Of a stretch of DNA of 33,770 bases, positions 7,085 through 25,330 are shown piece after piece (within the stretch, counting starts at the first letter, position 1; each line of letters opens with the position of its first letter). Position numbers and translations under genes: made by a program. The notes under the pieces are model-generated. The model saw nothing but the letters and a program-made list of their open reading frames with translations, was not told where the DNA came from and searched no databases. This DNA is from Oscillospiraceae bacterium (lineage in GTDB: Bacteria > Bacillota > Clostridia > Oscillospirales > CAG-272). The stretch spans positions 1 to 33,770 of the forward strand of contig SVTJ01000016.1 in the NCBI GenBank assembly GCA_015063845.1. Direction: 5' to 3'.

Positions 7085-8107
7085 ATGAGCGTACTTATTG
7101 GAGATAAAAAACTGAATAACGGGCTTATGCTCGCCCCTATGGCAGGTGTGACGGATAGCGTTTTTAGAGTGATATGCAAGCGATTGGGGGCGGAATATAC
7201 CGTCAGCGAGATGGTATGCGCCAAGGCGCTTTGCTATGCGCAACGCTCAAAAAAGATAAGTGCTGAGGCGTCTGCTTCCGCGGCGCTCGCGAGAACTTCT
7301 TTTGACGAGATGCCGATGGCTGTGCAGATATTTGGCAGCGAGCCCGAGTTTATGGCAGAGGCGGCAGCTATGATAGTGAACAGATCGTACAAGGGATGCG
7401 CTGCTGAATGCGCGCCCACGGCAATAGATATAAATATGGGATGCCCTGTACGAAAGATAACCTCAAACGGAGAGGGAAGCGCGCTTATGAAGGATCCCGA
7501 ACTTGCCGCAAGAATAGTGAGAGCGGTATCTGATGCTGTCAGTGTTCCGGTGACTGTCAAAATACGTGCGGGCTGGGATAGGACGTCAATAAACGCTCCC
7601 GAATTTGCAAAGGCGCTTGAGCAGGCGGGTGCTTCTCTTGTCTGCGTTCACGCGAGGACAAAGGAGCAGCTTTATGCCAAAGGCATAGACCTCGGCATAA
7701 TAGAACAAACCAAAAAAGCGGTCAGTATTCCCGTTATCGGAAACGGAGATATATATACTGCCGCAGATGCAATAAATATGATGACAAATACAGGCTGCGA
7801 TGGCGTTATGATAGGCAGAGGAGCGGAGGGAAATCCGTGGATATTTTCTGAGATCGCCGCGGCTATGGAACACAGAGAGTATATACCGCCAACGATTGCC
7901 GAGCGACTTTCGCTTGCTTCCGCGCAGCTTGATGCAATGATAGAGTTAAAGGGAGAGCGTACGGGGCTTGCCGAGGCAAAAAAGCATATGGCGTGGTATA
8001 TAGGCGGCGTAAGAGGCGCGGCTCAGGCAAGAGCAAGCATTATGACGGCTGAGAATGCCAACCAAATAAAAGATATATTTGCCGTACTTCTTAAGGACGG
8101 CGAATAA
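7085..8107 (+). CDS. dus: tRNA-dihydrouridine synthase
   Basis: The 340-residue flavoenzyme reduces specific uridines in tRNA to dihydrouridine. The FMN-binding start LAPMAGVTD (residues 16-24) is present, as is DINMGCPVRKI with catalytic Cys 120, VKIRAGWD, and the C-terminal phosphate-binding part GNGDIYTAADA followed by GVMIGRGAEGNPWIF. Length is normal for bacterial Dus proteins of the DusB type. GAGGAA precedes the ATG. A clear promoter could not be found between 6975 and 7084. A regulator-like gene starts 14 bases after the stop and is probably co-transcribed. Confidence 0.95.
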   Translation: MSVLIGDKKLNNGLMLAPMAGVTDSVFRVICKRLGAEYTVSEMVCAKALCYAQRSKKISAEASASAALARTSFDEMPMAVQIFGSEPEFMAEAAAMIVNRSYKGCAAECAPTAIDINMGCPVRKITSNGEGSALMKDPELAARIVRAVSDAVSVPVTVKIRAGWDRTSINAPEFAKALEQAGASLVCVHARTKEQLYAKGIDLGIIEQTKKAVSIPVIGNGDIYTAADAINMMTNTGCDGVMIGRGAEGNPWIFSEIAAAMEHREYIPPTIAERLSLASAQLDAMIELKGERTGLAEAKKHMAWYIGGVRGAAQARASIMTAENANQIKDIFAVLLKDGE

Positions 8108-8771: not shown

Positions 8772-8993
8772 TTAAAGTGTTTCAAGATAGTTTACAACAT
8801 CAGCAACAGTGGTGAACTTGCGGATATCGTCATCGTTGATCTCAATACCGAATTTGTCCTCGCAGATCATAACAAGGTCTGCAAGCTCTATTGAATTGAT
8901 ACCGAGGTCGTTTGAAAGCTCTGCATCCATTGTGATCTCATCGCGATCGATCTGAAGCTCATCAACAAGAAGGTTAACAAACTTTTCGTACAT
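8772..8993 (-). CDS. acpP: Acyl carrier protein
   Basis: The 73-residue acidic protein has the four-helix ACP pattern. The phosphopantetheine attachment site is Ser 34 in DLGINSIELADLV; the usual DSL is NSI here. The third and fourth helices (KFGIEINDDDI, TVADVVNYLETL) are typical. It carries acyl chains as thioesters during fatty-acid synthesis in the cytoplasm. It stands alone, with its own promoter and terminator, away from any fab genes. Because the window holds a second ACP (24928), this one may be the general carrier, but which is the housekeeping one cannot be settled from sequence. AGGAGG precedes the ATG. Confidence 0.9.
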   Translation of the reverse strand: MYEKFVNLLVDELQIDRDEITMDAELSNDLGINSIELADLVMICEDKFGIEINDDDIRKFTTVADVVNYLETL

Positions 8994-14437: not shown

Positions 14438-17400
14438 TTAGGTCATTAAGTTTCCACCACCGGGGGTAACAACGCCACCCAGGGAAGCACCGTTGTACTG
14501 GGGGTTGGAGTATTCGTTTTCAAATGTCACACTACTCCAGTTCTGACGAGCGTCTTCATAAAGGAATACTGTCTGGAGAGCAACGCAATACCTGAATGCA
14601 TCAGCTCCTATGGACGTAACCTTGCCCATAATATTGATGGTCGTCATTTTTGAACAGTTGTAGAATGCTCTTACGCCAAACTCTGCTGAAACGTCCTCTC
14701 CAAGGATTATCTCGGTTACGTTCGTAAGTCCTGACAAAGCTCCGTAGTACAGATTTCCGCCGAGAACTGTTATCTTTGTAAGAGAGGTGGGGACGTAACG
14801 CTTTATGGAGTTTGTAGCATCGTAATACTGTGTCACCTGGGTTGAGTTCGTTTGGTTTTCCGAGCTGAATATATAGGTGAACAACGTGTCCTGACCTGCT
14901 GATGTAGCATTTTTGTTAGTTCCAACGAAAGGAACGGTGATCTCCTTAAGAGATGTACAGCCGAGGAGCAGGCTTGCGGGGATTTCGGTGACGCTTTCGG
15001 GAATAGTAAGTGTCTCAAGCTTCGTGCAACGAGAGAATGCCTGATTTCCTATCTTCTCACAAACGCTTGCTTTTTCAAAGCTTATAGACTTGATGTTTGC
15101 CACGCGGTTGAATAGATATGCGGGAATGCTTTCTACTCGCTTGCCGAATACTACGTCGACACCGTTTGACGAACCGAAGTTTGCGAATACCATGTTTTTG
15201 GAACTGCTGTATTCAAGATCATCAAGTGTTACAGCGTTGAAAGTCAACTTCGTAACGCCTCTACAATAGTAGAACGCGTCTGTTCCTATGGATTTTACAG
15301 CCGCAGGGATAGTCAGCTCAGTAAGGCTCTCGCAGCAATAGAACGCGCTATCTCCTATTTTCGTTACAGCTTCGGGGATAACGGCCTTGGGAAGCTTTTT
15401 GCAGTTGTAGAACGTGTAAGGCTCTATAATCTTCTGAGAAGTGGGAATAACTATCTCGTGTTCAATGTTCTGGCAGTTGTAGAATGCATACGCTCCGATA
15501 TGTGTTACGTTTTTAGGTACGTTCACTGCCTGCAAGTCCGTTCTGTTGTAGAACGCTGCTGCGCCTATTTCATACGGCAGTCCCTCGTAGTTTTCGGGGA
15601 GACTGAGGTTGATGTCCTTTCCAATATAATCGCAGAGAATAATGTCATCACCGTTTACAAAGAATACGTAGCCATCGGTTGTGGTGACGTACTTGCTCTG
15701 CCCGTCTGCTCCGTAAACGTATCTTGCGTACTTGGAAACGTAGCCATATTTGCTTGTGTCATCTCCTTTAACTATATCAAGTTCCGAAAGATTTTGTACC
15801 TCGTAGAGCTTGTAGCAGTTGACGAACGCATCGTATGCTATGGTCGTTACTGTGGACGGAATATTGACCTTCATAAGATTCAAACATCCGTAGAATGCCT
15901 TGTAATTTATGGTCTTAAGACCTTCCGGGAGAATGACCTCTTGGAGCATAGTGCATCCGCTGAAGCAACCGAAGTCTACAAGTCCGCCGTTAAGCTTTAT
16001 CTTTTTGAGAGAAACGGGAATTGCATAGCTACCCGAGTTGCTGAAGCCATATTGCTGAGTTATGGTTACCGTAAGGTCACCAGACGCGGAGTTCTGATAG
16101 AAGAGGTGTCCGAGAATACCCGCGCCGCCTGTGGAAGTTGACGTTCTGCCGATAAAGGGAAGCTCAAGGCTTTCAAGAGCGTAGCAACCCTTGAAAAGAC
16201 CGTCGGGCAGGTAGGTCACGCCATTAGGAATAGTAACGCTCTTAAGAGAAGAGCAGTTTGTGAAAATAGTACCTATATACGTAAGCGTTGAAGGGAGCTT
16301 TATCTCCGTAAGCGCAGCGCAGCCGTAGAAGGCATTTTCATCAATTCTCGTAACACCCTCGGGAATGATTATCTCGGTCAGCTTCATACAGTTGTAGAAG
16401 GTGTACGTATAAACGGTTGTCTGACCTGCGGGTATCGATATCGAGCCTTCAAGATTCTTACAGTTGTAGAATGCGTATTCTCCTATCGATACGATGTTCT
16501 TGGAAAGATTGAGAGTTGTGAGCTTAGTGTGACCCCAGAATGCATATTTGGAAATATACTTTACGCTATCGGGAAGCGTTACGGTGGTTGCGGTAGCGCT
16601 CTTGAAGGCATACGCGCCGATGACCGTCGTTCCTGCCTTTACGGTATAGTTTACGGGCAGATCGGAAGTGGTTGCTATAAGAGCTTTTCCAATATAAAGC
16701 GCGCCATCAACATAATTCTCCGTATTATTGATAAATGCAGTATTATAGAAAGCGTTATATCCAATAGAAGTAATGCTGTCGGGAATAGAGAAGCTCGTGA
16801 TAGCTGTCTTGTTATAGAATGCGTTGTTTGCTATCTCCTTAACGGGAAGTCCGTTGAAGACGGCAGGAATGATTATCTCGGTATCCTCGCACGTGCCAAC
16901 TCCGCTGACAATATAATACTTTCCGTCGGTGGAGATTGTGTAGCTAAGTCCTACGCTCGTTCTGTTGTTGGGGTCGGGAACAAACGTAACTGTCTCGGGA
17001 ATGCCGTTTACATACTTCCAGTAGTAGCCGTCACACTCGGGTGTGGTGTCGCAGTAGTAGTATCTCGTATAATACGAGTTGCTGTTACCAATGGTTATTT
17101 CGTTCCAATCAGCGACGTTACCGCCATAGAATATCTTTGCGCTTGAGCAAGAGATAGCCGAATACTCGATGGTCTTGACAGACTTGGGGATAACGATATA
17201 TGACAGGTTGCCATAGAACGCGTACTGCTTGATGATCTCGCAGGTGCTGTTTGGCTCAAATATTACCTTGTTAATGTAGTGGTCGGTGGTACTTGATGCT
17301 CCGGGTCTTCTGAGAATATATTGAGGAAGCACCTTAACGCCTGAGCCGATTATAAGTGTACCGCCATCAGAGGGAACAGTAGCACCCTTAGCATAGCTTA

Positions 17401-19405
17401 AGATAATATCCTTCATCTGAGCGTTAGTAGCTCTGTACTCGATAGTTACAAGGGATAGGTTGTGGTAGAATATAGTTCCGCCAACATACGTGACGTGCTC
17501 GGGTATTACTGCCTTTGTAAGTCTTGGGTTAAAGGCAAAAGCATTGTGAGCTATCTGAGTTACCTTCACGCCGTTTATCGTAGAGGGTATATCTGCTACC
17601 GTCACGGTATCCTTTACGTCATATACGCATATAGTGCCGTCGTCAAGCATTACCCAGTAATAGCCATCGTCAGTAACGCCGTGCTTTCTTGTAGCACCAA
17701 ATATATAGGATATCGTCGTTCCCGTGATAGCTCCACCGTAACTAAAGGTCATTCCCGCGTTATTCCATTGAGAAGCAAAGGTGCTCGGCGCGCTTGATTC
17801 CTCAAACGCAAGGAAGACGTCGGAGTATGCCATGCTTGTATAGTCGTTGGCGTTGGAGCTCCATTTTATCGAGCCCGCAAATGCGCTTGCTTTGATGGTG
17901 GTTACGTATTTGGGGATAAATACCACCGTGTGGGGAACAAAGTAAGCTCTGAACGCGTATGAGCCGATCTCGGTACATACACCGTTGCCGGGGAACGTGA
18001 GCGACTTTATGACCGCTGTCTTCGATGCCAGGTCGGAATCTCCCATGCTAACTGTCGTTGTGAAGCTGATGAGATATGCGGGTATTCTTGTGACTTTTTC
18101 TCCGATGACAACGTCAAATCCACCGGAATTTCTTCCGCCGTAAAGGAAGTTGTTGTGGTATTGTCCAAGGTCAGCGCAGCTTACAGCGTTGAACTCAAGT
18201 CGAGTAAGCTTTTTACAGCCGTAGAACGCGTAGCCGCCTATCGTTGTAACACCCTCTCCGATGACTATCTTGGTTACGTTTTCACAACCATGGAATGCGT
18301 AGTTTCCTATAGTTTCAACCGAATTGGGAATGATTATCTTTTCAAGACTTGAGCAACCGTAGAATGCGTACTTGCCAATGCTCTTGATAGAGTTGGAGAA
18401 CACGATCTTCTGAAGATTTGTGCAACCGTAGAACGCGTTGTCACCGATACTTGTTATAGCGTCAGAGAAGTATATCGCTATGATGTCGGTGTTATCCTTG
18501 AACGCGTCTGCGTCTATGCCTGTTACGGGAACTCCACCGATCTCGGCAGGGATGTAAATGGTAGTGCCCGAAAAGCTTCCAAGTCCCGATATCGTGCAGG
18601 ACGTGCCGTCACCCGAAGGTGTTGCGGTAAGTCCTACGCTTGCTTTGTGCGCACCGCAGACACACTGGTCATTCGTTCCGTAAACGTGCGAGAGCTGCTG
18701 TATCGTTTGCGTTTCGGTGTATTCGCAGTTTTTACACTTCTTGATAACAGCGCCGTTTTCCTCACAAGTAGCGGGGGTATTGCTGAGGATCTCAAGCGAG
18801 TGAGGAGCGAAGTCCTGCTGCTTTGTTATTCTCAGTATTTGCTTTTTACATACCGAGCAATAAGTGACTTCATCATACGTGCCCTTGACAGAGCAGGTAG
18901 AAGCGGTTTCGTTTTCCTTTACGGGTTCAGCTTGTGTGTGCTCGCCCGTAGGAGACACGATTTTGTGCTCGGAACTTATTTTATAATTACAAACAGAGCA
19001 ATACACGACCTCGTCGTAGCAGCCCTCGTTACCGCAATCACCTGCCGTCTGATTTTCTATAACAGCATCAGCGGGGTTGTGAGAAGTAACTGTTTCTTTA
19101 GTTCCGCAATGGCATTTGCGCCAGTGACCGGTCGCGTCCGAGAAATACTCGCCCTCAAATACGTGTTGACACGATGGATCTCCGTCTCCGTTTCCACCGT
19201 CCACTGTACCGTCGCCACCGCCGACTGTGCCGTCGCCGTTGCCGTCTTCCGTAGTCGTACTGTTGTCAGCTGTACTGCTATTTGTGCTGTCGTCCGTTCC
19301 CGTGTTGCCTTCTGACTTTGTGACGTCTTCGCAGGAGACGAGCACTGTCATCGTGGCAAGAAGCAACGCGATGAGCGCAACTAAAACTCGTTTGCTTGTT
19401 TTCAT
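14438..19405 (-). CDS. Giant BspA-like leucine-rich repeat surface lipoprotein
   Basis: The 1,655-residue protein begins with a lipoprotein signal peptide (VLVSC, lipidated Cys 25) and a Ser/Thr/Gly/Asp-rich spacer to about residue 77. Residues 79-252 form a Cys/His-rich region with C-x2-C pairs at 136/139, 183/186 and 224/227 and CxC at 98/100 and 248/250, in repeats of the type YDEVxYCSVCxxxI. From about 255 to 1640 there are roughly 30 BspA-type repeats (LRR_5), each centred on AFYGC or AFYNC and a following IPxxVxxIG. The opening module VGL...DGTSCTISGLG recurs near residue 818 (VGLSYTISTDGKYY). Such proteins bind host or matrix ligands. There is no LPXTG anchor; anchoring would be by lipid. 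It has its own promoter and terminator. Confidence 0.92.
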   Translation of the reverse strand: MKTSKRVLVALIALLLATMTVLVSCEDVTKSEGNTGTDDSTNSSTADNSTTTEDGNGDGTVGGGDGTVDGGNGDGDPSCQHVFEGEYFSDATGHWRKCHCGTKETVTSHNPADAVIENQTAGDCGNEGCYDEVVYCSVCNYKISSEHKIVSPTGEHTQAEPVKENETASTCSVKGTYDEVTYCSVCKKQILRITKQQDFAPHSLEILSNTPATCEENGAVIKKCKNCEYTETQTIQQLSHVYGTNDQCVCGAHKASVGLTATPSGDGTSCTISGLGSFSGTTIYIPAEIGGVPVTGIDADAFKDNTDIIAIYFSDAITSIGDNAFYGCTNLQKIVFSNSIKSIGKYAFYGCSSLEKIIIPNSVETIGNYAFHGCENVTKIVIGEGVTTIGGYAFYGCKKLTRLEFNAVSCADLGQYHNNFLYGGRNSGGFDVVIGEKVTRIPAYLISFTTTVSMGDSDLASKTAVIKSLTFPGNGVCTEIGSYAFRAYFVPHTVVFIPKYVTTIKASAFAGSIKWSSNANDYTSMAYSDVFLAFEESSAPSTFASQWNNAGMTFSYGGAITGTTISYIFGATRKHGVTDDGYYWVMLDDGTICVYDVKDTVTVADIPSTINGVKVTQIAHNAFAFNPRLTKAVIPEHVTYVGGTIFYHNLSLVTIEYRATNAQMKDIILSYAKGATVPSDGGTLIIGSGVKVLPQYILRRPGASSTTDHYINKVIFEPNSTCEIIKQYAFYGNLSYIVIPKSVKTIEYSAISCSSAKIFYGGNVADWNEITIGNSNSYYTRYYYCDTTPECDGYYWKYVNGIPETVTFVPDPNNRTSVGLSYTISTDGKYYIVSGVGTCEDTEIIIPAVFNGLPVKEIANNAFYNKTAITSFSIPDSITSIGYNAFYNTAFINNTENYVDGALYIGKALIATTSDLPVNYTVKAGTTVIGAYAFKSATATTVTLPDSVKYISKYAFWGHTKLTTLNLSKNIVSIGEYAFYNCKNLEGSISIPAGQTTVYTYTFYNCMKLTEIIIPEGVTRIDENAFYGCAALTEIKLPSTLTYIGTIFTNCSSLKSVTIPNGVTYLPDGLFKGCYALESLELPFIGRTSTSTGGAGILGHLFYQNSASGDLTVTITQQYGFSNSGSYAIPVSLKKIKLNGGLVDFGCFSGCTMLQEVILPEGLKTINYKAFYGCLNLMKVNIPSTVTTIAYDAFVNCYKLYEVQNLSELDIVKGDDTSKYGYVSKYARYVYGADGQSKYVTTTDGYVFFVNGDDIILCDYIGKDINLSLPENYEGLPYEIGAAAFYNRTDLQAVNVPKNVTHIGAYAFYNCQNIEHEIVIPTSQKIIEPYTFYNCKKLPKAVIPEAVTKIGDSAFYCCESLTELTIPAAVKSIGTDAFYYCRGVTKLTFNAVTLDDLEYSSSKNMVFANFGSSNGVDVVFGKRVESIPAYLFNRVANIKSISFEKASVCEKIGNQAFSRCTKLETLTIPESVTEIPASLLLGCTSLKEITVPFVGTNKNATSAGQDTLFTYIFSSENQTNSTQVTQYYDATNSIKRYVPTSLTKITVLGGNLYYGALSGLTNVTEIILGEDVSAEFGVRAFYNCSKMTTINIMGKVTSIGADAFRYCVALQTVFLYEDARQNWSSVTFENEYSNPQYNGASLGGVVTPGGGNLMT

Positions 19406-19552: not shown

Positions 19553-19581
19553 TTGACAAATCGACATAAAACGACTATAAT
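19553..19581 (+). promoter_or_regulatory. Consensus promoter of the TetR-led fatty-acid operon
   Basis: TTGACA (19553-19558), 17-bp spacer, TATAAT (19576-19581), exact consensus. Transcription would start near 19588, which excludes the in-frame ATG at 19588 as a normal start and supports the one at 19639. Confidence 0.9.
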
Positions 19582-19590
19582 ATAGTTATG

Positions 19591-19600
19591 CAACTAAAGT
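19591..19600 (+). repeat. CAACTAAAGT, copy 2 (at the start of the regulator transcript)
   Basis: Exact copy of 19467-19476. With the following TG it forms the imperfect palindrome CAAC-TAAA-GTTG. A repressor here would block its own operon. Confidence 0.5.
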
Positions 19601-19638
19601 TGATTATTTTTGAGCTAAATGCTCGGATAGGAGGGAAT

Positions 19639-20184
19639 ATGGACCTTAGAATGGTAAAAACAAGGGCGCAGATAAAAAATGCGTTTTTGACACTTCGCGA
19701 GAAGATGATGCCCGAAAAAATAAAGGTCAAGGACATCTGCGACGTGGCAATGATAAACAAGACTACCTTTTACAATCACTATTCCGATACGTTTGAGCTT
19801 TCTAACGAAATAGATGAGCTTGCTGTCGAGAAAGTAGTTTCCGATTTCAGCGAAAGAGATAAACTGCTTGAAGATCCAAAGGCGTTTGCGATAGGACTTA
19901 TCCGCGTGCTTGAAAGAGACAGCGCTGAGCTCAGACGTATATTCAGAGGCAAGCAAGACGTTCTTTGCGTAAAGCTTGAGGAGAAGCTTCACTCGTTGTG
20001 CGGAAAGACGGAAACGATAGACGATGATATAAGGCTCGCATTTTTTATGGGCGGTTCTATCAGAGTGGTATGCGATTTTATATTTTCCGATATAAAATGT
20101 GATAAGGAACAGCTTACTGTTGCGGTTACCAAAATGATGGAGGCACTGGCTTCGCTCAAAAAGAATACGGCGCAGAGCGTTTGA
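19639..20184 (+). CDS. TetR-type transcriptional regulator
   Basis: The 181-residue protein has an N-terminal helix-turn-helix (about 10-50) with the TetR pattern VKDICDVAMINKTTFYNHYSD, and a helical C-terminal half with LAFFMGGSIRVVCDFI, typical for ligand-binding domains of small TetR proteins (TetR_C_7/8-like). I set the start at the ATG at 19639, which has GGAGGGA in front; a longer frame from 19588 would begin at the expected transcription start. It heads a same-strand cluster of fatty-acid genes (gap of 25 bases to fakA) and is divergent from the giant surface-protein gene. It may respond to an acyl ligand, but this is inference from its neighbours. Confidence 0.88.
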   Translation: MDLRMVKTRAQIKNAFLTLREKMMPEKIKVKDICDVAMINKTTFYNHYSDTFELSNEIDELAVEKVVSDFSERDKLLEDPKAFAIGLIRVLERDSAELRRIFRGKQDVLCVKLEEKLHSLCGKTETIDDDIRLAFFMGGSIRVVCDFIFSDIKCDKEQLTVAVTKMMEALASLKKNTAQSV

Positions 20185-20209
20185 CAAATATTGATATTTC
20201 GGAGATGTT

Positions 20210-21865
20210 ATGGAAACAAGAGTACTTGACGGAAATACGTTCAGGCGTATGCTTTGCGGAGGAGCAAACGGCATACGCACACATATTGAGGAGATAAATG
20301 AGCTCAATGTTTTTCCCGTTCCCGATGGAGATACGGGAACGAATATGAGTAAGACGATCGATAGCGGAGTGTTGAAGATATCAGAGTATGATAGCGCTGT
20401 GCTCGGCAACGTTGCGAATGAGTTTGCAAAGGGCTCGCTTTTCGGTGCGAGAGGAAACTCCGGAGTTATACTTTCTCAGTTTTTTGCGGGTATATGCGAG
20501 GAGCTTTCGGACAAGAGTACCGCAACTGTTAGCGAGCTTTCAGACGCTTATATGAACGGTGTTAAACGTTCGTATTCAGCAGTTTCAAATCCCGTTGAAG
20601 GAACAATACTTACCGTATTCAGAGAAAGCGCGGAGTATGCTCACGACAAACTGACAGATCAAAGCACACTTGAGGATTTTCTTAAGCTGAATATTGAGCA
20701 AGCAGAGCGTTCTCTTGAAAAGACAAAGGAGATACTGCCTGTGCTTACAGAGGCTGATGTGGTAGACAGCGGAGGCGCAGGATATTTGTGTATTGCAAAG
20801 GGGATGTATGCGTCTCTTTCGGGAGAGCAAATGCCGACTTTTTTGGCGGTACAAAGCGCACAGCCCTCAAATGAGATAAACTACGATCTGTTTACCTCTG
20901 ACACGGTGCTTGAATATGGATACTGTACGGAGTGTCTTGTAAGACTTCAGCACGCAAAGACCGACATTTCAGCCTTTGATGCGCAAGATTTTGCAAAAGA
21001 GCTTGAGGAAATGGGATGCAACTCGGTGGTGTCAATAAAAGACGGAGACGTACTAAAGGTGCATGCTCATACTATGACGCCTGCCGATATACTCACGCTT
21101 TGTCAAAGGTTTGGAGAGTTTCTTAATATAAAGATCGAAAACATGTGCCTTCAGCATTCCGAAAAGGAGAGCGAAGCGCCAAAGAAAAGAACTATCCACA
21201 AGAGATACGGTGTTGTTACTGTGGCAACGGGCGAGGGAATGAAGGCTCTGCTCTTGGCTCTTGGAGCTGACGTTATAATAGACGGCGGACAAACAGGAAA
21301 TCCTGCCGCCGAACAGTTCCTCGAAGCGTTTGAGCAGCTTGATGCGGATCATATACTTGTGTTCCCGAATAACGGCAATATTCTGTTGACGGCTCTGCAA
21401 GCAGCCGAGCTTTGGCGCGATGAAAACGTCACCGTTATCCCCACAAAGACTATACCCGAGGGATATGCGGCTCTATCGGTATTCAATTCTGCGGTAGATG
21501 ATATTGACGCTCAGATAAACGATCTTATATCCGCAAAGGACGCAGTCGTATCGGGAGAGCTTACGGTAGCCATAAGAGACAGCATCATAGGTGGAGTTGA
21601 GGTCAGGGAAGGAGAATACATAGGTATTCTTGACGGTGAGCTCGTCGCATCCGATTCGTCTCCGATAGACGCGATGTGCGCTATGATAGATAAAACCGAC
21701 GACCTTGACGACAGAGAGCTGATAACCCTTTTTGTGGGAGAAGGCGTGGACGACGAGGCTCGCGTGGAGATGGCTGACAGTATTGAGGACAGATATCCCG
21801 ATCACGCAGTAGAGGTACGTATCGGCGGACAAAAGATATACGATTATCTTATCGCGATAGAATAG
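20210..21865 (+). CDS. fakA: Fatty acid kinase FakA (DAK2/YloV family)
   Basis: The 551-residue cytoplasmic kinase phosphorylates a fatty acid bound to FakB, giving acyl phosphate. The N-terminal DhaL-like kinase domain has NVFPVPDGDTGTNM (33-46; metal-binding Asp 39 and 41) and GARGNSGVILSQFF. The middle region contains DSGGAGYLCIAKG and the C-terminal third has a DegV-like fold with IIDGGQTGNPA and FPNNGNILLTA. Length is normal. GGAGATGTT precedes the ATG. plsX follows after 12 bases. In many Firmicutes fakA sits with housekeeping genes such as recG or rpmB; here it is in a separate acyl-transfer cluster. Confidence 0.94.
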   Translation: METRVLDGNTFRRMLCGGANGIRTHIEEINELNVFPVPDGDTGTNMSKTIDSGVLKISEYDSAVLGNVANEFAKGSLFGARGNSGVILSQFFAGICEELSDKSTATVSELSDAYMNGVKRSYSAVSNPVEGTILTVFRESAEYAHDKLTDQSTLEDFLKLNIEQAERSLEKTKEILPVLTEADVVDSGGAGYLCIAKGMYASLSGEQMPTFLAVQSAQPSNEINYDLFTSDTVLEYGYCTECLVRLQHAKTDISAFDAQDFAKELEEMGCNSVVSIKDGDVLKVHAHTMTPADILTLCQRFGEFLNIKIENMCLQHSEKESEAPKKRTIHKRYGVVTVATGEGMKALLLALGADVIIDGGQTGNPAAEQFLEAFEQLDADHILVFPNNGNILLTALQAAELWRDENVTVIPTKTIPEGYAALSVFNSAVDDIDAQINDLISAKDAVVSGELTVAIRDSIIGGVEVREGEYIGILDGELVASDSSPIDAMCAMIDKTDDLDDRELITLFVGEGVDDEARVEMADSIEDRYPDHAVEVRIGGQKIYDYLIAIE

Positions 21866-21877
21866 GAGATTATTGAT

Positions 21878-22855
21878 ATGAATACTTATAAGATAGCGAT
21901 AGACGTTATGGGTAGCGATAACGGACCTGAGCTTTTGGTAAAGGGTGCGCTTGCAGCGCTTTCGGAGCACGAAGACCTTGAAGTGTTACTTTTTGGCGAC
22001 GCTGACACGATCGATCGCGCTATTGGAGAATACGATAGATCAAGAATTGAGGTGGTAAGTACTACCGAAGTTATCGACAACTACGACAATCCAATGGAAG
22101 CGATATACAAAAAGACAGACTCATCTCTTGTGAGGGCACTCATGACACTTCGAGAGAGAGATGACGTAGTTGGAGTTATAAATGCATCGAGCACTGGCGC
22201 ACTTCTTGCGGGCTCACTTAGATACGTTCCCGCAAAACAGCTTCGCCGACCTGCGCTTGCATCGATTTTGCCTGCTGAAAACGGCGGTTTTACATGCCTT
22301 GTGGATACGGGAGCAAACATTGATTGCAGTGCGCAGCACCTCGTTGATTTCGCTCATATGGGCTCGGATTTTATGAAACAGTATTACGGCATAGAAAACC
22401 CCAAGATAGGGCTTCTTTCAAATGGCACAGAGCCCACAAAGGGGAATAAGCTGGTAAAGGAAACACACGCGCTGCTTAAAAAGGAGAGCGACCTCAATTT
22501 TATCGGCAATATCGAGGGCAATAGAGCGCTTTCGGGAGACTGCGACGTGCTTGTCGCAGAGGGATTTGCTGGAAATCAGGTGTTCAAGAACTCTGAGGGT
22601 ATCGCGAGACGCCTTATAACGGATATCGTTAAGTACGCAAAGAAGACGGGAAGCTCCGAGATAATGCAGCTCGTGGGATATCTTATGAAGATATACGACT
22701 TCAACTCGCTTGGCGGTGCTATCGTGCTCGGCGTGGATAAGCCCGTTATTAAGGTGCGCGGTTCAGCAAATGCCGATACAATCAAGAACACAACGTCAAT
22801 GCTTATGAATATGATAAAGCACAACGATCTATTTAACGGAAAGGATGTAAGATAA
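21878..22855 (+). CDS. plsX: Acyl-phosphate:ACP acyltransferase PlsX
   Basis: The 325-residue protein interconverts acyl-ACP and acyl phosphate at the membrane surface, the link between FakA and both fatty-acid elongation and phospholipid synthesis. It begins IAIDVMGSDNGPELLVKGA and has SSTGALLAGSL, GLLSNGTEPTKGNKL, VLVAEGFAGNQVFKNSEG and the C-terminal GAIVLGVDKPVIKVRGSA. From memory of the family, MGSDNGP replaces the commoner MGGDxAP and SSTGAL replaces GNTGAL, so it may be a divergent paralogue; this needs an alignment. GGAG stands before the ATG, and fakB starts one base after the stop. No plsY, fabD or rnc genes, its frequent partners, are adjacent. Confidence 0.94.
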   Translation: MNTYKIAIDVMGSDNGPELLVKGALAALSEHEDLEVLLFGDADTIDRAIGEYDRSRIEVVSTTEVIDNYDNPMEAIYKKTDSSLVRALMTLRERDDVVGVINASSTGALLAGSLRYVPAKQLRRPALASILPAENGGFTCLVDTGANIDCSAQHLVDFAHMGSDFMKQYYGIENPKIGLLSNGTEPTKGNKLVKETHALLKKESDLNFIGNIEGNRALSGDCDVLVAEGFAGNQVFKNSEGIARRLITDIVKYAKKTGSSEIMQLVGYLMKIYDFNSLGGAIVLGVDKPVIKVRGSANADTIKNTTSMLMNMIKHNDLFNGKDVR

Positions 22856-22856
22856 T

Positions 22857-23768
22857 ATGGCAGGAAAGATCAAGGTAATGTGTACATCTACGGGCTGTAT
22901 CGAATATGCTCCCGAGCGTTATAGAAAGTATGACATTGATATAATTCGAATTCACGTGAATTTTAAGGGCAAGGAATATCTTGAGGGACTTGACCTTGAC
23001 CCCGTTGAATTCTATAATGAGCTCGAAAAGCTTGATGATCCTAAGAATAATCTTCCGTTTACGGCAATGCCTACGCGTGAAGCGATAATGGCACACTACG
23101 ATAAGGCAATTGCAGACGGATATGATGAGGCAATAGTGATAGCAATAAGCTCAGGCTGTGGCGGAACGTATAATTTGCTCCGTCTTATAGCGGAGGAATA
23201 TGCGGATAAAATAAAGATCACCGTGATAGATTCAAAGATCACCTGCTTTGGTGAGGGCTTGCTGGCTATCAAGGCGGCAGAGCTTGCTGAGAAGGGCGTT
23301 GACGGTGAGACCATTGTCAAGGAGATCCGCTGGATGATGAAGCATCAGGAGTTCCTTGGTGTTGACGGCAGACTTGACTATCTTATATACAACGGCAGAC
23401 TTAAGGGCGGAAAGGCTCTTATGGGTAAGATGCTCAGCATTTGTCCCGTAATACATTTCAACAAAGAGGGCGAGATAGTTTCTTTGCAGAGCGTAAGAAC
23501 TCAGAAAAAGGCTCTCAAGCAGACCTGCGAGATACTTAAGGAGATCATTGGAGACAGAGCTCCCGAGGATTATCTCCTCTGGCACGTTTATACGGGCACG
23601 ACCTTGCTCACAGAGCTCGTTGAGATCGAGAAGGCATACGACATCAAGACAAATCACGAGGACGTTATTATGTCACCTGTAAGCGGTGCGCATAACGGTC
23701 CTTGGCTCGCGGGATACGGACTTGCCTTTATCCGTCGTGAGGACGAGCCGCTTGACGAGGAAGTCTAA
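22857..23768 (+). CDS. fakB: DegV-family fatty-acid-binding protein (FakB type)
   Basis: The 303-residue protein has the DegV fold. FakB proteins hold a fatty acid in a tunnel and present its carboxylate to FakA. The carboxylate-contacting region is IAISSGCGGTYN (95-106), compared with the usual SSGLSGTY. LPFTAMPT corresponds to the conserved FxTSQPS stretch, DGRLDYLIYNGRL is the standard lid region, and SGAHNGPWLAGYG stands for GAHxGPG. The N-terminal TSTGCIEY differs from the typical TDSTADL, so lipid preference may be unusual. Its position between plsX and the GNAT gene, with FakA in the same operon, makes a FakB role likely. Confidence 0.88.
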   Translation: MAGKIKVMCTSTGCIEYAPERYRKYDIDIIRIHVNFKGKEYLEGLDLDPVEFYNELEKLDDPKNNLPFTAMPTREAIMAHYDKAIADGYDEAIVIAISSGCGGTYNLLRLIAEEYADKIKITVIDSKITCFGEGLLAIKAAELAEKGVDGETIVKEIRWMMKHQEFLGVDGRLDYLIYNGRLKGGKALMGKMLSICPVIHFNKEGEIVSLQSVRTQKKALKQTCEILKEIIGDRAPEDYLLWHVYTGTTLLTELVEIEKAYDIKTNHEDVIMSPVSGAHNGPWLAGYGLAFIRREDEPLDEEV

Positions 23769-23770
23769 GT

Positions 23771-24925
23771 ATGGGAAGCATAAATATCATAGAGGTAAAA
23801 ACACGTGCAGAGAGGCGCGAGTTTGTTGAATTTCCCCTGAGACTTTATAAGGATTGTCCGTACTTCGTGCCGCCTCTCTATGGCGACGAAATGGCGGTGT
23901 TTACTGACAAAAACGCATGCGCTAATACCTGCGTATCGGTTTTCTTTCTCGCGCAAAGAGACGGGAAAACGGTAGGACGTATTCAAGGTATCATTCAAAA
24001 GCAGTCAAATGAGCTTCACAGTGAAAAAAGACTGCGTTTTACAAGGTTTGATGCAATAGACGATGTCGCTGTCGCTACGGCTCTTTTTGACGCACTTGAG
24101 ATGTGGGGAAGAGAGAAGGGAATGGACACGGTATGCGGCCCTCTTGGATACAGTGACCTTGAGAGAGAGGGACTGCTTATAGAGGGATTTGATAGGCTCT
24201 CGACCTTTGAAGAGCAGTACAATTACGAGTATTATGCAAAGCTTATTGAGGCTTGCGGATATTCAAAGGAGATAGACTGGCTGGAGTTTATGCTTCGCGC
24301 TCCCAAGATGAAGAACGATATGCTCGCAAGAGTTGCGGAGCGTGCGTTGGAGCTTTCCAAGCTACACGTTGTTGACGCGTCAAAATTGTCAAAGAAGCAG
24401 TACATAGCTAAGTATAAGGACGGTGTTTTTGATTGCATCGATCTTTGCTATCGCCACCTCTACGGAACCGTGCCGTTCACGGAGAGTATGAAAAAACAGC
24501 TTATCGACCAGTTTATGATGGTCATAAACAAAAAATATCTCATCGTTATATGCGATGAGAATGAAAGAGTAGTGTCGTTTGCACTTTGTATACCGAGTAT
24601 CGGTGAAGCACTTCAAAAAAGCGGCGGACGTCTGACACCTTCTGCTATACAAAAGGTTCTTAAGGCAGTAAAAAAGCCAAGGACGGTAGACCTTGGACTT
24701 GTCGCGATATTGCCTGAGTATCAGTCGGCGGGTATAAATGCCGTGATGCTATGGAAAATGACAGAATATCTCGAGAGTGGTGAGATAGCCCATTTTGAGA
24801 CTAATCTTAATCTCGAGACCAACGTGCAGGTAATGGCTCAGTGGAAGTATTTCGACAGTGAGCAGCATAAACGCAGACGCTCTTATATTAAAAACATTGC
24901 TCCCGTATTGGAGAGAAAGGACTAA
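23771..24925 (+). CDS. GNAT-fold N-acyltransferase (YghO-like)
   Basis: The 384-residue protein starts with FVEFPLRLYKDCPYFVPPLYGD and a VGRI stretch, features of the long GNAT-like family that includes E. coli YghO. The acyl-donor-binding motif A is LVAILPEYQSAGINAVML (310-327, with Q-x-x-G at 318-321), followed by FETNLNLETNVQVMAQWKYF. Family members transfer an acyl group from CoA or ACP to an amine, but few have known substrates. Here it lies 2 bases after fakB and 2 bases before an ACP gene, which suggests acyl-ACP as donor. The acceptor is unknown: an amino acid, amino sugar or polyamine is possible. Confidence 0.85.
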   Translation: MGSINIIEVKTRAERREFVEFPLRLYKDCPYFVPPLYGDEMAVFTDKNACANTCVSVFFLAQRDGKTVGRIQGIIQKQSNELHSEKRLRFTRFDAIDDVAVATALFDALEMWGREKGMDTVCGPLGYSDLEREGLLIEGFDRLSTFEEQYNYEYYAKLIEACGYSKEIDWLEFMLRAPKMKNDMLARVAERALELSKLHVVDASKLSKKQYIAKYKDGVFDCIDLCYRHLYGTVPFTESMKKQLIDQFMMVINKKYLIVICDENERVVSFALCIPSIGEALQKSGGRLTPSAIQKVLKAVKKPRTVDLGLVAILPEYQSAGINAVMLWKMTEYLESGEIAHFETNLNLETNVQVMAQWKYFDSEQHKRRRSYIKNIAPVLERKD

Positions 24926-24927
24926 TT

Positions 24928-25149
24928 ATGCTTGAACAGCTTAAGGAGATACTCGCAAAGGTAAACAGAAGCATCGATATGGATGCAGTTAACGAACAGA
25001 CAAGACTTATTGAGGACCTCGCGCTTGACTCACTCTCTATAATGCTCTTTGCTATGGAGATAGAGGCAGCATTCGGCTTCAGATTTACCGAGCCTGTGCG
25101 CTTTGAGACGGTCGGCGACGTTTGCGCTTACCTTGAAAACAGAAAATAA
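24928..25149 (+). CDS. Acyl carrier protein of the fatty-acid operon
   Basis: The 73-residue protein has the ACP four-helix pattern with the attachment site Ser 35 in EDLALDSLSIMLFAMEIE, and a C-terminal ETVGDVCAYLENR. It differs strongly from the acpP-like protein at 8772, so it is a second, probably specialised carrier. It is the last gene of the TetR-led cluster, with AAAGGA before its ATG and 2 bases to the GNAT gene. The likely job is to receive acyl groups from PlsX and deliver them to the GNAT enzyme (inference). A 4'-phosphopantetheinyl transferase is not in the window. Confidence 0.88.
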   Translation: MLEQLKEILAKVNRSIDMDAVNEQTRLIEDLALDSLSIMLFAMEIEAAFGFRFTEPVRFETVGDVCAYLENRK

Positions 25150-25162
25150 GAACGCGATTTTT

Positions 25163-25192
25163 GAGGGGAACTTCTTCAAAGAAGTTCCCCTC
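25163..25192. repeat. Long hairpin after the ACP gene
   Basis: GAGGGGAACTTCTT (25163-25176) is perfectly complementary to 25179-25192, and two further pairs extend it (TT/AA). No T-run follows on either strand, so it is not a classical terminator. It closely resembles the stem at 12921-12950. Confidence 0.75.
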
Positions 25193-25298
25193 AAACTCAC
25201 ACAAGAACTTTAAAGAATTGGTTATTTTTGCGCCACAAGAAACTTAGGTTGCCCACGGTAGAAAAATCTTTTTGTTTGAAAGTTCTTTTTGGGGGTGT
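25193..25298. other. Non-coding stretch between two hairpins
   Basis: No gene, promoter or RNA family is recognised. CAAGAACTTT (25202-25211) and AAAGTTCTTT (about 25279-25288) are nearly complementary, so the whole 25161-25330 region could fold as one nested structure. Confidence 0.4.
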
Positions 25299-25330
25299 AA
25301 TGGGGTCTTTCTCGAAAGAAAGACCCCATT
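25299..25330. repeat. Second long hairpin, next to the aminotransferase stop
   Basis: AATGGGGTCTTTC (25299-25311) pairs perfectly with GAAAGACCCCATT (25318-25330). It lies just past the aminotransferase stop at 25342 on the minus strand but lacks a T-run there; it may still protect or end that transcript. Confidence 0.7.

Follow-up and report, generated by a model that had tools for sequence, protein, structure and literature searches.

The operon described here occupies positions 19639..25149 of a 33,770-nucleotide stretch of DNA (the window; contig SVTJ01000016.1, assembly GCA_015063845.1) from an Oscillospiraceae bacterium of the order Oscillospirales, and it joins genes for fatty acid capture to a gene for an acyltransferase with a tandem-GNAT fold, from the YghO / bacterial ceramide synthase (CerS) family. 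Six genes lie on one strand in the order regulator, FakA, PlsX, FakB, GNAT enzyme and acyl carrier protein (ACP), with intergenic gaps of 25, 12, 1, 2 and 2 bases. An initial annotation, made from the sequence alone, had described a six-gene, same-strand set with gaps of 1 to 25 bases behind a single consensus promoter, and the open reading frame (ORF) coordinates confirmed both points: all six ORFs were found, and a sigma-70 type promoter, TTGACA-17-TATAAT, lies at 19553..19581 (+) and matches the consensus at 12 of 12 positions.

The first gene (19639..20184, +) encodes a putative TetR-type regulator of 181 amino acids (aa), for which start 19639 was preferred over the mechanical ORF start at 19588 because it has a ribosome-binding site and aligns with the starts of relatives' genes. 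The protein gave no Pfam match and a weak match to the NCBIfam DhaS model (29.7 bits, cut-off 129), and relatives 50-58% identical to it were found in four operons of the window's type (window-type operons). FakA, the catalytic subunit of fatty acid kinase (20210..21865, +), carries the DAK2, middle and C-terminal domains (PF02734, PF21645, PF13684), and its fatty-acid binding partner FakB/DegV (22857..23768, +) carries PF02645; solved structures include FakA among the relatives of the former and FakB1 among those of the latter. Both subunits of FakAB are thus present at the domain level, above the Pfam cut-offs. Among the NCBIfam models they scored above cut-off only as members of the YloV subfamily and the DegV family (TIGR00762), the NCBIfam equivalog cut-offs for FakA_VfrB (445 vs 975 bits) and FakB1 (127 vs 350 bits) not being reached. 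PlsX, the acyl-ACP:phosphate acyltransferase (21878..22855, +), passed the NCBIfam equivalog model TIGR00182 (271.7 vs a cut-off of 243.4 bits) and has three solved PlsX relatives. Deviations at conserved motifs had been noted for PlsX (MGSDNGP, NASSTGALL) and FakB (SSGCGGTY), and these are visible, yet both proteins still match solved family members over most of their length. The last gene (24928..25149, +) encodes an ACP (PF00550) with a DSL phosphopantetheine site, at residue 34; ACPs 43-87% identical to it come after the GNAT gene in relatives' window-type loci, and its earlier assignment as the operon's own ACP was upheld.

The GNAT enzyme (23771..24925, +) gave a structural model with a pLDDT (predicted local distance difference test) of 91.3, and its best structure matches were tandem GNAT proteins. 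It is 28% identical to YghO over 373 aa (E 8e-43), and comparison with a YghO profile by hhalign returned a probability of 99.95 over 364 columns, so the label 'YghO-like' that it had first been given reflects full-length homology. In a Pfam scan it matched only the broad family PF00583 (E 1.5e-4) and gave no match to PF13444, which we take to be the N-acyl amino acid synthase family of the commendamide type. In Escherichia coli BL21, yghO (ECD_02850) lies near genes for a fatty acyl-AMP ligase, an epimerase, an ACP and serine palmitoyltransferase (Spt). Excerpts of PMC9386255 list it together with Caulobacter CC_1154 under the name 'aca', given to the N-acyltransferase that acts in dihydroceramide synthesis; CC_1154 is termed an acyl-CoA transferase in the literature, and the family tie to it runs through YghO as its listed counterpart. 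By sequence and profile comparison, the operon GNAT is a member of the YghO/CerS family, and it probably works like the enzymes of that family. Given that an N-acyltransferase is what the literature describes for the family member under study, that the gene is conserved beside fak/plsX genes and that an ACP belongs to the operon, its activity is best read as the transfer of captured fatty acids to an amine, and the gene order suggests acyl-ACP as its donor.

In known family biochemistry, FakB and FakA convert a fatty acid to acyl phosphate, and PlsX turns acyl phosphate into acyl-ACP. In the pathway that we propose, FakB would bind a captured fatty acid, FakA would phosphorylate it, PlsX would shift the acyl group from acyl phosphate to the operon ACP, and the tandem-GNAT enzyme would pass it to an amine. 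We consider it fairly probable that the operon, by its own genes alone, leads from free fatty acid to an N-acylated amine. In the window layout, the acceptor may be a long-chain base taken from the surroundings, or some other amine.

Conservation of the gene set was assessed in 79 genomes of relatives, the window genome included. Twenty of them matched the GNAT, and exclusion of one partial match (G006, E 1e-4) left 19 genomes with a full-length GNAT. In 17 of the 18 relatives' loci the GNAT gene adjoins a gene for FakA, FakB or PlsX, or several of these, the exception being G013. A wider set was made of the best 80 of at least 585 loci from named genomes plus two IMG/VR loci, 82 in all. Its commonest layouts were the GNAT alone (21 loci, some of them near contig ends, e.g., L139 and L141), FakA-FakB-GNAT-PlsX-ACP (11) and FakA-FakB-GNAT (8), while FakA-PlsX-FakB-GNAT-ACP was found in 6, plus 2 regulator-led loci. 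For alignment, 8 of the 82 GNAT segments, whose match ran past a stop codon, were left out and the window was added, which gave 75 labelled rows; a same-strand FakA, FakB or PlsX gene lay no more than 7 kb from the GNAT gene in 56 of these. When mapped on a tree with 89 rows, this fak/plsX proximity was clustered, with 9 changes compared with a mean of 17.2 after shuffling. Record titles of the best 80 loci named Clostridia, Spirochaetales, Bacteroidales, Bacilli and others, many of them from the herbivore gut; nearly all relatives are metagenome bins, and single odd phyla may be misbinned. The gene set thus recurs across genera more than chance would bring about, and the GNAT gene is kept beside fak/plsX genes in both samples, as the initial annotation had proposed to check. 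The two IMG/VR contigs, which are filed as viral (L157 and L158), carry YghO-family GNATs of 41% and 36-37% identity and, in the stretches covered, no fak genes; they may be host DNA.

The window genome (G000; 1.88 Mb, 21 contigs, 96.7% complete) contains one PlsX match, two FakA matches, three FakB/DegV matches and four PP-binding matches, and its second FakA is 36% identical to that of the operon. Among 30 fetched PlsX loci of relatives, 24 have PlsX flanked by trmFO and rnc. In the window genome these two genes stand 12 bases apart within one contig (L272, G000:C8:44000-60000; 7999-8012), which indicated that this plsX has been lost and that the operon PlsX is the sole copy found. The view of PlsX as an extra, specialised paralogue was thus not supported for this genome, and a search for further copies, which had been suggested together with it, turned up a second fakA and additional FakB/DegV genes and no second plsX. 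Of two findings that, taken together, had been named beforehand as speaking against the whole proposal, a genome holding only the operon copies was borne out for plsX alone, and a GNAT gene not conserved beside them proved false. Across the 19 genomes with a full-length GNAT, 13 have at least two PlsX matches, and the specialised-paralogue reading may fit these. Four (G000, G017, G030 and G040) have only a GNAT-linked PlsX, and two (G013 and G047) have a single PlsX located away from the GNAT gene.

No match to the ketoacyl-synthase family PF00109 was found in the window genome or, counting it, in 21 of 25 genomes of the genus, and of the four matches in the remainder that of G008 is weak and partial. 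Bacteria of this genus therefore probably take up fatty acids, and the absence of PF00109 fits reliance on captured ones. In this species, any housekeeping demand for acyl-ACP would also fall to the operon PlsX. The window holds another ACP gene, which, at 8772-8993 (-), has the best of the genome's four PP-binding scores and passes two ACP subfamily cut-offs, and it is therefore the likely housekeeping ACP.

The acceptor amine was approached by a survey of Spt in 394 genomes of the order, in which 42 carried a GNAT of this family and 53 a strong Spt match, meaning at least 383 bits (the next match had 295, and the threshold was set after this gap was seen), with at most 4 candidates for Spt and at most 5 for the GNAT scored per genome. 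When the 42 GNAT genomes, which are not independent, were sorted by layout after their loci had been viewed, Spt was present in 12 of the 15 genomes with layouts containing another FakB type (sister layouts, GNAT-FakA-FakB included), compared with 41 of the 379 other genomes (p 3.6e-9); counted by genus, the figures were 6 of 9 and 27 of 159 (p 0.002). For the GNAT family as a whole, Spt occurred in 15 of 42 genomes with the gene and 38 of 352 without it (p 8e-5). The 79-genome sample includes six sister-layout genomes, and four of these (G044, G050, G062 and G074) have a strong match to E. coli Spt. Serine palmitoyltransferase was the best NCBIfam model for two clostridial Spt proteins, with scores short of its threshold (551 and 521 vs 640 bits), and a KdsR-like short-chain dehydrogenase/reductase (SDR) gene stands beside Spt in 12 of 18 loci viewed (L251-L254, L259-L263, L265, L267 and L268). 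The reductases next to these two scored best against 3-ketodihydrosphingosine reductase, again short of the threshold and not far ahead of the next SDR model (226 bits vs 198 and 216). G367, which belongs to the window's family, has a further YghO-family gene at 1.3 kb from kdsR-spt, with the Fak operon elsewhere. These co-occurrences suggested that the sister layouts, FakA-FakB-GNAT-PlsX-ACP and GNAT-FakA-FakB, most likely use as amine a sphingoid base that Spt and a 3-ketosphinganine reductase supply, in which case the product would be ceramide.

Several observations weigh against the proposed route and its link to sphingoid bases. Spt was found in 0 of 10 genomes with window-type FakB layouts in the 394-genome survey, and in 0 of 11 with window-type operons in the overlapping 79-genome sample queried with E. 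coli Spt. The window genome, at 96.7% completeness, likewise lacks a match to the E. coli query and to clostridial Spt at E 1e-40, so that ceramide cannot be made there de novo from known genes, and for this reason we have not filed the operon as a ceramide pathway. Among the six sister-layout genomes of that sample, G030 and G040 gave no match to Spt, and one of the 12 Spt genes counted in the survey, that of G044, is broken. Layouts without Fak genes make up 17 of the 42 GNAT genomes, and 3 of these 17 have Spt; this class includes G237, although a FakB-like gene of 31% identity lies beside its GNAT gene. Counted by genus, the association between GNAT presence and Spt is weak (8 of 24 genera, p 0.066), and a GNAT of this family was missing from 38 of the 53 Spt genomes, which shows that Spt does not need it. 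The p values must also be read in view of layout classes and an Spt threshold chosen after viewing, non-independent genomes and the limited number of candidates scored per genome. Furthermore, the loss of the usual plsX leaves room for a role of the operon in phospholipid synthesis, and all reactions of the pathway, like its acyl donor, its acceptor and the ligand of the regulator, are predictions.

The phospholipid explanation holds that FakAB, PlsX and the ACP form a membrane supply operon that provides acyl-ACP and acyl phosphate for ordinary phospholipids in a cell without fatty acid synthesis, the GNAT enzyme being an accessory such as an O-acyltransferase or a protein acylase. The single PlsX of the window genome, its lost trmFO-rnc copy and its lack of a PF00109 match agree with this, as do the three other genomes whose only PlsX is GNAT-linked (G017, G030 and G040), although these are 82-90% complete. 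A parallel exists in Lactobacillus johnsonii, where most genes of fatty acid synthesis are missing and an AcpB gene adjoins plsX, according to excerpts of PMC6509188. A pure supply function fits poorly, however, with the 13 of 19 GNAT genomes that have at least two PlsX matches, with the second FakA in the window genome and with those loci in which the GNAT gene accompanies FakA/FakB and no PlsX or ACP was seen; moreover, PlsX was not found in 8 of the 79 relatives, so a genome that has lost its usual copy has not necessarily handed the task to the operon. We regard membrane supply as unlikely.

The remaining explanations are sub-cases of the route from free fatty acid to N-acylated amine, and they differ in the acceptor. 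One is an N-acyl amino acid or N-acyl polyamine synthase that, for signalling or detoxification, would load toxic or excess free fatty acids onto an abundant cytoplasmic amine under TetR-type induction. A regulator-led operon with a conserved promoter block, the tandem GNAT fold, the window-type layout without Spt and the lack of a recognised acceptor-making enzyme among the recurring neighbours (clusters read by eye) are all consistent with such an enzyme, but the sister layouts co-occur with Spt and so point to a lipid amine, and the GNAT has no match to PF13444, the family presumably expected of it. On balance, this sub-case is a sizeable possibility short of being probable. The other is sphingoid base salvage, in which a true ceramide synthase would use captured fatty acids to re-acylate long-chain bases that come from food, the host or bacteria nearby. 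A supply of free bases and fatty acids is to be expected in the herbivore gut, from which many of the best 80 of at least 585 relatives come by record title, and membership of the ceramide synthase family and the Spt-linked sister layouts argue in the same direction. The lack of Spt in the window genome counts against it, as does the failure to recognise an uptake or sphingolipid-modifying gene among the recurring neighbours, where none was searched for by family; in the accessible parts of PMC11324152, a bacterial sphingolipid salvage route is not clearly established. We hold salvage to be possible and rather doubtful.

Compared with the bacterial ceramide clusters (Caulobacter CC_1162-1165 and CC_1154; spt-acpR-epi-aasR and yghO in E. 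coli BL21), the operon shares a YghO/CerS-family N-acyltransferase, a dedicated ACP and dedicated fatty acid activation, whereas activation here would use FakAB and PlsX instead of an acyl-AMP ligase, and the window genome has no Spt match. Its GNAT and ACP genes are adjacent, while the special ACP of Rhodobacteria is reported, in excerpts of PMC9386255, to serve Spt. With the FakAB-PlsX-AcpB pathway of Enterococcus faecalis and L. johnsonii, it has in common FakA, FakB, PlsX and an additional ACP for acyl groups of exogenous origin; in Enterococcus, PlsX loads such groups onto AcpB in preference to AcpA, and the accessible passages of this source mention no GNAT for the AcpB pathway (PMC6509188), whereas the operon joins all these genes and a GNAT. 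What would set the operon apart from the systems described so far is its final step, in which a YghO/CerS-family enzyme would draw on the fatty acid kinase route. Commendamide-type N-acyl amino acid synthases also use a GNAT fold to move acyl-ACP-borne chains to an amine, but they belong to a different family, the operon GNAT lacking PF13444, and we know of no Fak or PlsX supply genes beside them.

Each part of the operon is of a known kind; what is new is fatty acid capture tied to a ceramide-synthase-type enzyme in a compact operon of gut Clostridia. The combination of fatty acid kinase, PlsX, private ACP and ceramide-synthase-type GNAT was not found described in the open-access PMC literature searched, nor do we know of a description elsewhere. 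Genomic potential for Spt alone is not new, Spt-like genes being reported from 40 phyla in the accessible text of PMC11334938. Gut bacterial ceramides, like other N-acyl lipids from these organisms, attract wide interest, and the operon shows how a fatty acid kinase of the Gram-positive style could feed a ceramide-synthase-type enzyme. Laboratory-studied makers of bacterial ceramides and N-acyl lipids are mainly Bacteroidota and Proteobacteria. As a tentative and somewhat improbable generalisation, many gut bacteria, mostly Clostridia, might build ceramide-type lipids from scavenged fatty acids, with kinase, PlsX and private ACP replacing the acyl-AMP ligase of the proteobacterial pathway, one branch making its own sphingoid base and the window branch, in a bacterium where no ketoacyl synthase was detected, salvaging both halves. 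The sister layouts with Spt and KdsR give a clear prediction for lipidomics.

The regulatory region is also conserved. From the -35 box through CAACTAAAGTTG, a candidate operator at 19591..19602 directly 3' of the -10 box, the window is almost identical to four relatives' operons, and the five aligned sequences include the variants CAACTTTAGTTG and CAACCTAAGTTG. The exact pattern CAACTNNAGTTG occurs at 2 sites in the window genome, one of them in the operon promoter region. The regulator probably controls its own operon. Sister-layout operons have other genes at a constant distance upstream of the GNAT gene, about 2.5 and 3 kb, respectively: a small helix-turn-helix-like gene directly 5' of FakA (5 loci, e.g., L122 1009-1290) and an opposite-strand gene for a zinc-ribbon protein (5 loci, e.g., L107 2224-3012), which are possible alternative regulators. 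Downstream of the window operon, two perfect hairpins with arms of 17 and 13 bases (25160-25195 and 25300-25329), neither with a plain T run on its 3' side, lie between it and a convergent aminotransferase gene. The divergent gene on its other side, at 14438-19405 (-), encodes a BspA-type leucine-rich-repeat protein of 1655 aa, and a promoter-like site of that gene at 19479-19451 (-), which matches the consensus at 11 of 12 positions, carries TTGACTTTAGTTGG. Because this resembles CAACTAAAGT, the operator-like sequence in front of the operon, both may be regulated together, and the TetR-type protein perhaps also controls the BspA-type gene.

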